64,000 nt of DNA from Tubiluchus corallicola. Its lineage: Eukaryota > Priapulida > Priapulimorpha > Priapulimorphida > Tubiluchidae. Location: NCBI GenBank assembly GCA_030141605.1, contig JAQGDQ010000192.1, forward strand, positions 321,380 to 385,379, in the 5' to 3' direction. Both the position numbers and the translations under genes were made by a program. Shown here one piece after another: positions 6,101-12,100 of the stretch. The notes beneath the pieces are model-generated. The model searched no databases. It was not told the DNA's origin and was given only the letters and a program-made list of their open reading frames with translations. Position 1 is the stretch's first letter. Every line of letters begins with the position of its first letter.

Positions 6101-9100
6101 GAACACATCCTGTGCTGTGGCTCATAAACTAACCATGTTAAGAAAACATTTCTTTTAGGGATATAGATACAGGCTGTTTATTAAGTATTTTTACTTATGA
6201 AAACTCATAAACCATCAATTTTGTTTATGCGTGCTTTTAGTTGCTGCACACTCAGTGGAAAAATTCCTTGTCAAGTTGTGCTATACTCTTTCAATTTCAT
6301 TTGGCAAATAAATAAATAAATATGTCAGTATTCGATACGAGTTGGTCCAATTTCTTAGACCAAGAGATTTGAAGACAAAAAAGGAGAAAGATGGGCAAGC
6401 CAATGAACTTTTACATTTGTTTAGACTAGCTTTTAATATTTCAGCGTCAAACACTTCCATAACTTTGCTAATCTCTTGAAATTGTGACTATATGTTCTAA
6501 ATTAGTTATTAATGAAAAACCCAGAAGCATTTATAGCAGTGTACTACGGACACTGTTAAATTTGTCATGTACAATTTGACAACTAAAAATTTGATTCAGC
6601 TTTGTAAACTAGTGTCATCAAATTTTGGATCACTGAATAATAATAGCTAGCCAGGCAGATTACAATAATTAGAAGAATAAAAATTGAGATCTGATGCGAA
6701 TTTTTTGTATCTCCTCTTTTGAGGTGTTAATATTAATTTAGTTGCGCTTGGCAAGTACTGAAGAAATGCACTGATAACTTACACTTTGCGAGCGCTGTTT
6801 GCAGAAAATTACTGCTGATATAAGTTATTTTATGATTTTTTTATCATTCACTAAGCCACCCTGCGCATCTGTTAGTGTTATATTTGTTGTAAGCCTCGTT
6901 TCAGTGCAGCTGTACAATGTATTAAACTATGCAGCGAAGGTTGTCCTGACATTGAGTCCGGCTTTAGGTATGGGTGGCAGCAGCCATGGGAATAAGAAAT
7001 AAGTAGCTATTATGAACAGATTGCAGCATGCTGACTCGTTTTTTCTCTTACACGTAAGACGCATTTCATAGCAAATCCTCGCGGAAAATGCATATCACTG
7101 CCTGGGAGCATTTATTATTACAGCCGTGGTTTTTCAGCGCTGCTACACAGGGCGATCTGCTGTTCTTGCTGAAGCCGAGTTTTCATGCTCAGCGAGCCAA
7201 GAGAAAATTTTCCAACTGTGTACTGACTAAAAATACCTTACACAAAAATGGTTGCGGGGAAATCCGATCATAATGTACTGCATTAAAGGGGGTCTCTATG
7301 AGCTTGTAGCTTTGGTATTGTTCACTATAAATAAAGCTATCTTGCTGGTGAATCTGGTTTTGAGACGAGTGCTTTATCTGTCTGAAGGTGATGGTAAAAG
7401 GCAGTCGTTGTTTAGTGTAACAACGGTCAGGGCAAACCAAGGACAGCAAAATCCTTGTGAAATTGATAAAGAATGAGCTCAAAAACTATACCGCTTTGCC
7501 ATTAATAATCCCATTATTCATACAACTGTTTAGCGCTCACATTCTTAAGCAATAGTGCATTTAATTAGTTTAGAAAAATGGTTAGGTAAAATTCATCTCA
7601 ACTGAAAGACTCGCTGCCTGCAGTATCTACACTAAAAAGTGGTACAGCTAAATATAACCATAGTGTAGCACATTTCAAGGGCAAATGTCCACGAGATACA
7701 TTTTAAAAGGTCAATTTGCATGAGAAGTAGAATGAAGTCTAAATCATGAAGCGTAGATAAATAGGGAGGTTGCAAGATATTGTTAGAAATGTGGCTTCCT
7801 CATTTAGATTTTGTTTGATAATTTTGTGATTAATATGTGTTTGTAATATAGCTTTCTCCTTTTGGTTTTGTTTGATAGTTATGTGAGCAATATGTGTTTG
7901 TAAGGCATCAAGAGGTAGTCTCGTCAAACATTTACAATTATTCTTGTGAACTGTGATTGTTGGTCTCTATTAACAGCCAGTTTGTGTTATTGTTTTTGTT
8001 TTTTTTGGAGAAGACATGTTTTGCAAACATCCAGATTGTTGGTTTAAGAACCTTTTTCTTTTAGTCCATCTGTTAGCAATTTTGTTAGGAAAAGGACTGA
8101 CAAAATCGCCAAAATCACACCTGTTAGAGAGAAATTAAGTACACTTTATGTATTTGGTATTCTTGCCCACTATTTTTGCATAGTTTAACCTTGAAACCAC
8201 ATTGAATCTATGATTACATAACTTAGCTCAACTTACGAAGCCAATGGCTTCTTCGCAGTGTATTATTGGGTATACTTTACATGTTTTCAACCAAAAGGTC
8301 AAGTCTTCATCTCACTCCCAATCCCAGTAATTCTACCTCAATCCCTAACCGTTTGAAAATATTGGTAACAAAATTTAGTTCTCTGTCTGCTGGAGCTCTG
8401 CTTTAGTAAGGCAGATAAAACCACCACTGCATTGCAGTCCTATGATCTTACCAACCTCAAAACAAACTTTTTTGAAAAAAGCTAAAGTGCAACAAGTATA
8501 AATAGAATGCCATGTATGGAAACCATGACTGATAGTTCAAACCTCTATTACTAATATTTATAGGGTATAATTGTTGTAGTGATTGTAGTCTAGTAGTTAA
8601 ACCTCTAGTACTGATAGGTATATGGTATAATAGTTGTAGTGATTGTAGTCAAACTTACAAAGAGTCAAAGTTTAAGAGTGCATTGTTTTTAATTATTGCA
8701 GTAATATAGTGGCCATTATGATGGAGCTACAACTATATTGTATCACTTTATAAGTTTGTGTGATTTGTTTGGTTGGTTGTAATATGTAAAACATTTGATA
8801 AATGTAAACCTCTAAATCACATCTAGCAATATGTAAAGAAGTAAATCTACTTCTAAAACTGTTGAATTATATCAGAAGAATTCATAAATTTTTTGCTGAA
8901 TTTGTGAAAATGTTCATTATGTTTATTTATGCTTTTTACACAGGTAAAGCTTTATGGGAACTCATCTTGGAGCAGTTTAATGATCTGTTAGTCAAAATTT
9001 TATTATTAGCAGCTGTTATATCTTTTGTAAGTATCTGTATGTAAAACTTGTTTAAACACGTTTGCTGCATGTGCTCATACTTTTATATCATTTTTCAGTA

Positions 9101-12100
9101 TGAAAATAAATCAAAGTAGTTTTTTTAAGACCGGCTATATTAAAGAACTACTTTTAAATGTACTTCTACTTTTTTTGCATTTTTGATTATTTAGCACCCT
9201 ATAAATTTTAATTCAATTTGAAATTTTGTCAAATATTAATGTTGTCCACATTTTTTCACGTGCTTGGAGAGTTGAGTTGAAATGCAACTTTATTGCCTTT
9301 TAAGCATTGTGTCCGGCCTGCACCGTTTTCATGTCTGGGCTCATTTGCTTTCTTTTCAATTACATTTTGCTTATTGGTACTTTTCACGGTGTTCCTGTTG
9401 GGATGTGTGTGCAACGAAATAGAATTTTGCTTATTATTTTCCCATGTCTTTGGTCACCAGCTGTGGTACTTTTTGCATCAGCTGATACCCATTTCCTGTG
9501 GATCTTCTGCTCCGTCGTCTGGCATATTTTACGTGCTGTCATAAATTTGTGGCTTCGACACGCTGTGTAATTTTTAGAATATTGACAAGATTTTATTTGT
9601 GGAACACATCAAGATTTCGAAAGCCGTTCTCGTGCTTGGCTTGCTTGCATAAATAGTAAAACGATCTAAAACAGGAAATTTTAGCAGTCTTGCAAAGAAA
9701 GTGTGACGTTTTAAATAAATAGTTTTTTGCTGTTGTAGAAGGAAACAGATTTTCTGTTGTTCTTGCGCAATTTCTTGTGCAGTCAGAAGCTGCATGATGG
9801 GGTACCGATAAAAAATTTTGTGGTGCACTACAGATGGACACTCGTGTTGCTAACTGGACAGCTACATGGGTTTTGACTTTCAAATTTCCATCTAAAACTG
9901 CCATCTTGACGTTTGTCTGCTCTCCTCTCGTTCTTATGAAATGCTGAAAAACTGGAAAAGAATCCTTGCATCTAAAAAGCATTTTAGATGGCTTTTTTCA
10001 GTTAATCAGTATGTTCTTTCTCGCATATAGGCTATGGCTGTGACATCTGATCTGTTGAGTTTGAATGAAATCGCCGTTTTAATAAACTGCCTAGAAAATT
10101 AGTGTAACATTTTCCATGTACAACTTGCACTACAAGGTTGACAATAAATTTATGTAACGGAAAAAATTTACGTAACATAAAGGTAGAGGTGCAGTCGCAA
10201 TTTCAAGAAACCGGTTTTGTAAAATATGAGCACATGTCAGAAAACGTGTAGTTGTCGGAATTAGTTTTTCACTGAAATTTTTTGATTTTGCAGCCACTCC
10301 ACTGTGGAAGCTATTTCTTAACCAGTTTCTACAACCGCTGCCGCGCATTTTGCTATTGTCGGCTTTTATCTCATTTGTGAGTATGTTCAAACGAGAAAGA
10401 TTGGCCAAAATATCGAATTTTTTAAACAGAATTCGTGTCACTTTGGTTGACGTTGTGCAAATTACAAACTTTACAAATGAAATATCTACTCATTTGGCTT
10501 ATGTATTCAAAACTTCTTCAAGTACTTGATTTAACGTTGCAGTTGGCCAATCTTTAGACCCGACCTGTGAACAGATGCTGCAGTTTTTTTCAACTCAATC
10601 TCGCCTTTTCTGCTATTGTCATTATACGTAGTTGCGTTGATACTTTGCGAGACTGGTTAAGCTACTGCTTTCTCTTCTATGCATCTATATTCTAAACCTC
10701 TGGTTTCTAATATTACCTCGATAAAAGTTTATGACGCATACTTGACACTTATTTTTAAACCTATCTTTCGCATTATGGTGGTAAAAAGGTATTAATCGTA
10801 TCTAATCGTGTCAGGTTAAAGCAGAATTTCCGTGGCAGTTTAGCTGCTGGTTTAACATACCGCTGTGCTATCTTGCGGCACCTATTTTTATTTCCCTGAA
10901 TCCTGCTTTGCATTTTTTTAATACTTTGCTTTCGAATACTGATTATATAAAATTCAAAGCAGATTTTCATGTATCTAGGTAAAGTGTGAATGCCAGTTGT
11001 GTAAAATTACATTTTTTGTGGGCCAACCATGAAACTTCGATAGCATTCCAGGCTGTACCTATTTTACCTGTTGAGGAAAGATAGTTCCTGGTTGCTGAAG
11101 TGGGCCTATTTTATCGATGGCGTTTTGGAATATGTCTAATTTATTTCAGCAGCCATTTTTTTCTAACTAATTATGTTTTACCAATTGACTTGCAACAAGA
11201 ATGAGTGAGTAAAAATGTAAAAGGGACAATTTAGTTGACTTCTCTTAAATTATTTTTATGTTGCAGGACCTTGCTCTATGTTACACACTACAGTGTTTAT
11301 ACTGGTGCATTTTTATTTCTTACATAGTGTTTCAATGTTTTGTGTTTACAGATTTTTTTATATATACGGTCACAATGTTAAATTTTATTTTGGCATTTTA
11401 AGACACTTATAAATTAGTGTGGATTTTATTGCTTTGGTGTATTATCATTATTCCTGTGTGCTATAAGACGTCTTTTGTTCATTGTTTATGTATGGTTGGT
11501 GAAATTATAAGATTTGAAACTATTTCTATTAAAAAACATATGTACCCTATATTTCAAGTTTCTAGATAATACAATATTTCAGTTTAATTGTCAAAATCCA
11601 TGATTTACACCCACACATTCAGTGCCTAAAGACTCTAGTTTTGTTCATACCGCAAACATACTTGCATTCACCGTACTGTCATTTGTGGGCAGATTATTGA
11701 AGTTACTTAGTAGCTTGAAAATGTTCTTCCATTGCAGTCTAATTGAGGTTATGAATTATACATTTTTATTAAAATTTTGATTAAAACGTTTGTTCAGTTT
11801 AAAATTATAAGTTTGAAATTCAGATACAGTACCTACTTTGCTCGTTTTTTTTGTTGCTTACCGACTGAACTTTTCAACTTCTCATGTTATGTCCTCTCAA
11901 TACCAAATTTTTCTTAAATAACAGTGACCAAACATGATTTTTTTGTCTGCAAGTTTAAACTATTTGAGTGATTCGAATTAGAAAGCATCATAATTTTGAA
12001 GATTTCCAAACTGCTACGGTAAATGCATTTAAAAATTATTTATGGTAATACTAAATTGTAATTGTTGCAAAACCTTTTCAGTGTGCATATGCTAGCAATA

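Follow-up and report, generated by a model that had tools for sequence, protein, structure and literature searches.

The SERCA gene and its three exon pairs

The stretch of DNA analysed here (the window) comprises 64,000 nucleotides (nt) of the genome of Tubiluchus corallicola, positions 321380–385379 of contig JAQGDQ010000192.1, in an assembly of 343.5 Mb. It contains a gene for the Ca2+ pump SERCA, located on the + strand, which spans the window from exon 2 (130–147) to the stop codon in exon 22 (34937–35155). Three exons of this gene occur as two homologous copies each, namely exon 3 (3a, 8944–9026; 3b, 10294–10376), exon 7 (7a, 15631–15716; 7b, 16905–16990) and exon 10 (10a, 23622–23724; 10b, 25154–25256). 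We propose that this apparently single-copy gene probably carries three mutually exclusive exon pairs, giving up to eight pumps, and that exon 3b would supply a functional M1 helix with changed Ca2+ entry. Residue positions are given throughout in rabbit SERCA numbering.

The best matches of the spliced model in the PDB are SERCA2 and SERCA1, and the model contains the TGES, DKTGT and PEGLP (M4) motifs. The N-terminal third in its 3a form is overall closer to SERCA, with 613.7 bits to SERCA2 versus 199.8 to SPCA1, and the N-terminus in its 3b form matches the Pfam family Cation_ATPase_N at 78.4 bits. In a phylogenetic tree (P0001–P0145 without P0003, over 900 amino acids), the SERCA of the window was placed beside two named tardigrade proteins and one unnamed protein with weak support (0.74), and it appears nearest to the ecdysozoans. 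The protein P0003, from a sturgeon (1252 amino acids), was left out because its C-terminal part is repeated. The family counts given below refer to the 194 aligned SERCAs that remain of 195 proteins, a set rich in fish and arthropods.

Whole-genome searches point to one gene copy. A query made of exons 2, 3a and 4 matched, at E ≤ 0.001, only exons 3a and 4 of this gene, and the 3b peptide matched itself and, weakly, exon 3a (E 0.6), with nothing else listed. A 480-residue query covering exons 10a–19 gave 24 matches, ten of which are exons of this gene (85–97% identical); the other 14 lie elsewhere with identities of 29–60%, and we take them to be other P-type ATPases. No second SERCA gene was found in these searches, which were not exhaustive, as exon 3b was missed by the first query and exon 10b by the 480-residue one, and the gene looks single-copy. 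One P-type ATPase match in the genome (L008; G000:C151:28168–28995, − strand), at 41% to SERCA, lies inside a stop-free frame of 886 amino acids; it may lack introns, or may be bacterial sequence within the assembly.

Exon 3a encodes the canonical M1 segment and exon 3b an alternative one, which matches the family profile with E = 2.9e-9. Both copies have 83 nt and the same phase, and the encoded segments are identical at 15 of 28 residues. The borders are acacag/GTAAAG...TTTT/gtaagt for 3a and tttgcag/CCACTC...ATTT/gtgagt for 3b (slashes mark the exon limits). This pair had been described in an earlier note on the same DNA, and the lengths, shared phases, splice borders and identity reported there were all reproduced; the coordinates 147, 8944, 9026, 10294, 10376 and 12213 that it gave are exon borders in our gene model. 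That note recognized the duplicated M1 exon and missed the two further pairs, which were found by searching the window with fragments of human SERCA and then with the exon peptides.

Exon 7 begins at Gly182-Glu183 of the TGES motif and extends over the following loop to Ser210, in the A domain. Its copies have 86 nt each and are identical at 55 of 86 nucleotides and 21 of 29 residues, the differences falling at positions 190–193, 195, 197, 198 and 207. Exon 7a, the alternative segment (family profile E = 1.2e-18), and exon 7b are equally near the family majority (24/29 each), and both keep all 13 positions conserved in at least 97% of the relatives. Exon 7a has Arg198, present in 181 of 192 relatives, and Ile207 (110/187); exon 7b has Lys198 (10/192) and Thr207 (0/187). 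The equal match to the family majority, together with the common Arg198 and Ile207, argues against decay of 7a.

Exon 10 encodes approximately residues 396–429 of the N domain, of which the stretch near 397–402 is presumably a phospholamban contact in mammals. The copies have 103 nt each, with 50 of 103 nucleotides and 13 of 34 residues identical. Of the positions conserved in at least 97% of the relatives, the alternative copy 10b keeps four of four and 10a three of four. Exon 10b matches the family profile with E = 8.1e-4, using a profile of eight rows; after the gap filter, eight rows remained for exon 10a and one each for exons 4, 8.4, 15, 20 and 22.

These resemblances exceed what the window offers by chance. 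Among 127,496 other 83-nt placements on both strands, excluding overlaps with the copies themselves, 23,150 are open in the right phase and none equals 3b, which has a BLOSUM62 score of 65 against 3a compared with 23 for the best other placement. The same comparison gave no placement matching the second copy of exon 7 (0/127,478) or of exon 10 (0/127,376) in its score against the sister exon.

No further exon has a second copy at E < 1e-3 when the exon peptides are searched over the window with tblastn (exon 2, of 18 nt, is too short for such a search), and exons 21 and 22 have none below E = 0.2. Profiles built for each exon and compared with 1,115 open stretches of the first 40 kb of the + strand returned the same three pairs below 1e-3. 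The next-best profile matches, of the exon 15 profile to the exon 16 stretch (E 0.003) and of the exon 7 profile to position 2656 (E 0.008), were taken as chance. A stop-containing fragment between exons 11 and 12 (26821–26898) resembles exon 10 (E 0.009 to 10b, 0.084 to 10a) and may be either a chance similarity or a decayed third copy.

The divergence between sister exons is concentrated at third codon positions. Identities at codon positions 1, 2 and 3 are 13, 22 and 9 of 27 for exon 3; 20, 20 and 13 of 28 for exon 7; and 19, 22 and 9 of 34 for exon 10. Positions 1 and 2 compared with position 3 by Fisher's test gave p = 4e-6 for the pooled exons, and 0.0096, 0.032 and 0.0016 for exons 3, 7 and 10 separately. 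The NG86 estimates of dN are 0.41, 0.36 and 0.60, respectively; dS is 1.84 for exon 7, and for exons 3 and 10 it could not be computed, as happens when it is saturated. A coding-like divergence is thus supported by the sequences, in a comparison of copy with copy that cannot tell which of the two was constrained. With respect to the family majority, the copies share no derived residue in exons 3 and 7 and two in exon 10, so the duplications do not look recent. An unconstrained copy of such age should have lost its frame or its borders.

The reading frame allows one copy of each pair. None of the lengths 83, 86 and 103 nt is a multiple of three, and all eight one-of-each combinations are open over 987 residues from LPAEE to the same stop. 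Skipping of 3a, 7b or 10a, with the canonical copies kept elsewhere, leads to a stop after 10, 165 or 378 residues, and inclusion of both copies of exon 3, 7 or 10 to a stop after 62, 176 or 400 residues, which means an early stop in six of six cases. Homologous exon pairs whose frame breaks on skipping or doubling are the usual design of mutually exclusive exons. This design, which the earlier note had put forward for exon 3, is supported by the frame test and concerns three pairs instead of one.

All six paired exons have AG/GT borders. With splice matrices built from the single-copy exons of this gene, acceptors scored 10.2 for 3a and 5.2 for 3b, 10.8 for 7b and −1.6 for 7a, and 6.9 for 10a and 5.1 for 10b; the donors scored 5.3 and 4.1, 5.4 and 6.0, and 6.2 and 5.5, in the same order. 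The single-copy exons themselves, scored by leave-one-out, gave a mean of 5.6 and a minimum of −1.7 for acceptors (n = 21), and a mean of 6.3 and a minimum of 0.6 for donors (n = 20). Five of the six paired acceptors (5.1–10.8) and all the donors (4.1–6.2) are inside or above the single-copy range, and the acceptor of 7a is at its bottom. The introns between the copies measure 1267 nt (exon 3), 1188 nt (exon 7) and 1429 nt (exon 10), long enough to make steric exclusion unlikely. In the intron between 7a and 7b, a local hairpin around 16367–16398 is stronger than in 60 of 60 shuffles, and it is not tied to the splice sites.

Interpretation of the paired exons

From the sequence evidence we consider it very likely that the three-pair architecture is functional. 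The spliceosome would pick one exon of each pair according to cell type or stage, 3a or 3b in M1, 7a or 7b in the A domain from TGES on, and 10a or 10b in the N domain, which would allow 2 × 2 × 2, or up to eight, full-length pumps. Exons 3a, 7b and 10a are the likely defaults because their acceptors score better, and 3a and 10a are also nearer to the family consensus. Wrong splice products would be removed by nonsense-mediated decay.

Compared with 3a, exon 3b has lost the acidic residues at 51, 55 and 59, as had been claimed; the claimed loss of Glu58 does not stand between the copies, since 3a already has Asn58, so that Glu58 to Leu is true with respect to rabbit SERCA and not to the sister exon. 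Asn58 is also found in 4 of 194 relatives. Exon 3b was further said to gain two prolines, and three were found (48, 60 and 62), all absent from 3a. Pro48 is common in the family (47/194 relatives), and Pro60 and Pro62 occur in none of the 194. Of 13 M1 positions conserved in at least 97% of the relatives, 3a keeps all and 3b keeps ten. Taken by its sequence, the gene is a SERCA gene whose 3b form departs from the family at M1.

This departure goes in the direction of another pump. Human SPCA1 (ATP2C1; structures 8iww and 8iwp) has Lys51, Ser55, Lys58, Asn59, Pro60 and Ser68 at the aligned positions of its M1, and 3b resembles it in the acid-poor cytosolic half, Lys51, the non-acidic residues at 55, 58 and 59, Pro60 and Ser68. 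Pro62 of 3b, on the other hand, has no SPCA1 counterpart, and SPCA is a separate gene and family, whereas the protein of the window stays SERCA-like in its single-copy exons. Passages of PMC10313705 describe how the TM1 kink of SPCA1 moves and takes part in closing the cytosolic Ca2+ cavity; the closing residues include Gln78 and Asn81, and Pro82 is where the shift was measured. By alignment, Gln78, Asn81 and Pro82 (8iwp numbering) correspond to positions 56, 59 and 60, and we infer that the kink is caused by Pro82. For SERCA, a break of TM1 at residue 58 whose bend forms the Ca2+ entry pore is described in part of PMC7313052, and simulations in which K+ ions are guided by E55, E58, 'E59' (as printed) and E109 are described in part of PMC3997511. 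An effect of 3b on the cytosolic Ca2+ access path, already suggested in the earlier note, agrees in general terms with the TM1 passages of these three papers.

Most of the changes in 3b are also found in a family of pumps that work, and this lowers the likelihood of an inactive protein and raises that of an altered entry; that 3b is a functional M1 with altered Ca2+ entry has, as far as the sequence can tell, about an even chance of being true. The helix would be kinked by Pro60 and Pro62 and stripped of its guiding acids, as in SPCA pumps. None of the known Ca2+-site residues, we assume, falls in a swapped exon, and we therefore do not expect transport to change fully to the SPCA type; the Ca2+ sites, encoded in single-copy exons, would stay of the SERCA type. 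Exon 3b would then change the rate and affinity of cytosolic Ca2+ entry, probably towards a lower apparent affinity or a slower binding, and the motions of the A and N domains would be tuned by exons 7 and 10, likewise in combination.

Several observations weigh against this explanation. Exon 3b breaks positions that hardly vary in the family: residue 55 is Glu in 192 of 194 relatives and Asp in the other two, and Asp59 and Val62, both present in 3a, are found in 194 of 194, where 3b has Gln and Pro (0/194 relatives). The second copies 3b, 7a and 10b have lower-scoring acceptors than their sisters, and that of 7a is at the bottom of the range of the gene, a score reached by 46% of the AG dinucleotides of the window. 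Judged by the leave-one-out range, the acceptors of 3b and 10b are ordinary and those of 3a and 7b are good, which weakens the case for poor acceptors in the second copies. RNA pairing gives no help for exon 3, where the best helix of the intron was equalled by 7 of 60 shuffles and that of the wider region by 12 of 15. The candidate docking arms between the exon 3 copies (9068–9083 and 10221–10236, 16 nt) were rejected on the same 7 of 60 shuffles. In the exon 10 intron no pairing beyond that of shuffles was found either, the best helix being equalled by 19 of 60.

A counterpart of 3b was also missing among the relatives. A set of 5.8 billion proteins clustered at 90% was searched with the canonical form (best 120 of 8,000 scored), with the 3b form scored on residues 1–40 only (79 rows of 87 candidates) and with a 171-residue 3b form scored in the same manner (17 rows of 29 candidates). 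The matches listed comprise 212 distinct proteins, and none of them has a proline at M1 positions 58–63. This absence is weak evidence, because clustering at 90% would hide an isoform that differs in 28 residues. The nearest in score to 3b were ordinary SERCAs and fungal ones with ATPLW at the start. A scan of the relatives for isoform swaps, as pairs more than 97% alike outside one poor stretch of 26 residues, gave 70 pairs. Most of the 60 pairs listed involve P0168, P0149 or P0143, which were read as faulty gene models and rejected. The Ciona savignyi proteins P0128 and P0129 differ around exon 10 but also elsewhere, and were set aside as paralogues or mixed models.

The alternative that survives best, still an unlikely one, is that the second exons are spliced in and the 3b form is not a working pump: it would be a SERCA without activity or with a dominant-negative effect, or else would dampen the canonical pump as a regulator or scaffold. 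The altered Asp59 and Val62 and the two prolines in the entry helix would suit such a protein, which would still be full length with the catalytic and Ca2+-site exons shared. However, ten of the 13 near-invariant M1 positions are retained, and SPCA1 works with Lys51, Ser55, Asn59, Pro60 and Ser68 at the same positions.

It is improbable that the second copies are dead relics, that is, ancient duplicate exons no longer spliced and open by chance or through recent loss. This would be consistent with the lower acceptor scores of all three, with 7a at the bottom of the range, and with the failure to find a relative carrying 3b in the clustered set. However, all three copies have kept an open frame, the right length and AG/GT borders, despite their far-diverged third positions, and 7a is as near the family majority as 7b; three intact relics in one gene would be unlikely.

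Hardly more plausible is the idea that the duplicates serve mainly as a frame switch, lowering pump output through nonsense-mediated decay when both or neither of the copies are included. The early stop in all six cases of skipping or doubling favours it, but a poison exon needs no protein-like sequence, and the distribution of differences over codon positions points to a peptide that mattered. Capture of 3b from another pump gene such as SPCA, in place of duplication of 3a, is very improbable: it would explain Lys51, Pro60 and Ser68, as in human SPCA1, but 3b joined to exons 2 and 4 scores 77 bits to SERCA against 23 to SPCA among solved structures (exons 2 and 4 help this score), has exactly the 83-nt length and the phase of 3a, and has no other 3b-like place among the genome matches listed.

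A single-copy SERCA gene with three mutually exclusive pairs and a functional 3b is therefore the reading that we favour. A bolder form of it, in which eight pumps are combined from one gene, 3b acts as an SPCA-like entry gate that changes affinity or ion choice by splicing (for example, tolerance of Mn2+), and exons 7 and 10 tune the A and N domains independently, is a tentative extension that we regard as doubtful.

Single-copy exons and other features of the window

Exon 1 lies upstream of the window, about 7.2 kb from its edge, at contig positions 314096–314213 (L003 2717–2834), and encodes MEAAHTKSPREVLDFFKVNEETGLSHEQVQEYQEKYGPN, followed by the G of a split Glu codon. Exon 2, of 18 nt, ends in ...LPAEE plus G. 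The other single-copy exons, all on the + strand, are exon 4 (12213–12320, 108 nt), which encodes the end of M1 and M2; exon 5 (13140–13278, 139 nt); exon 6 (14199–14279, 81 nt); exons 8.1–8.4 (19596–19662, 20199–20287, 20953–21130 and 22213–22343), which run through the DKTGT site; exon 9 (22490–22578, 89 nt); exons 11–20 (26425–33273); exon 21 (33768–33885, 118 nt); and exon 22, the last of the model, which encodes M10, a long C-terminal tail and the stop.

A 40-nt tandem repeat (33864–33961; 2.5 copies, 77% matches) begins within the last part of exon 21; since it duplicates the splice-donor region of this exon, additional donors may be present there. Inside exon 22 there is a possible internal donor, GAAG/gtagaa (35051–35060), located at what we take to be the site of the switch between long and short C-terminal tails in invertebrate SERCA genes.

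Downstream of the gene, another gene may have an exon at 38583–38723, an open stretch rich in Gly and Pro that matches nothing in Pfam at E ≤ 0.1. In the region 49848–50245, ATT repeats (49863–49913) precede an open stretch that likewise matches nothing in Pfam at E ≤ 0.1 and reads by eye like a reverse-transcriptase fragment of a long interspersed nuclear element (LINE). A 185-nt tandem repeat (1.8 copies, 92% matches) occupies positions 63118–63451.

Comparison with known systems

Few membrane pumps are as conserved as SERCA, and what is known of its cytosolic Ca2+ entry path along M1 comes mainly from structures, simulations and point mutants. If used, the second exons would provide a natural, evolution-tested replacement of M1 and two swaps in the cytosolic domains, that is, eight variants in which entry, gating and domain motion could be probed against Ca2+ affinity and rate.

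Clusters of mutually exclusive exons are known in Dscam and in Na+ and Ca2+ channels. The SERCA pairs are like them in being tandem homologous exons of equal length and phase, with a frame that enforces one of each. We know of no mutually exclusive exon pair in SERCA or in another P-type Ca2+ pump. In the open literature, no title on a swap of M1 or on internal mutually exclusive SERCA exons was found among the papers listed; subscription papers were mostly outside this scope, and novelty is unproven.

The internal exon choice proposed here would give animals a further means of tuning SERCA, besides C-terminal splicing and small-peptide regulators. As in other invertebrate matches, exon 22 ends in a long tail. 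In vertebrates, according to passages of PMC5840707, splicing affects exon 22 of SERCA1, and skipping of exon 21 or retention of intron 19 affects SERCA2; the statement of the earlier note that known SERCA isoform diversity is at the C-terminus agrees with these passages. The vertebrate SERCA1a/1b and SERCA2 variants described there likewise derive several pumps from one SERCA gene by regulated splicing, but their differences are at late exons, whereas in the gene of the window they would concern three internal segments, in M1, the A domain and the N domain.

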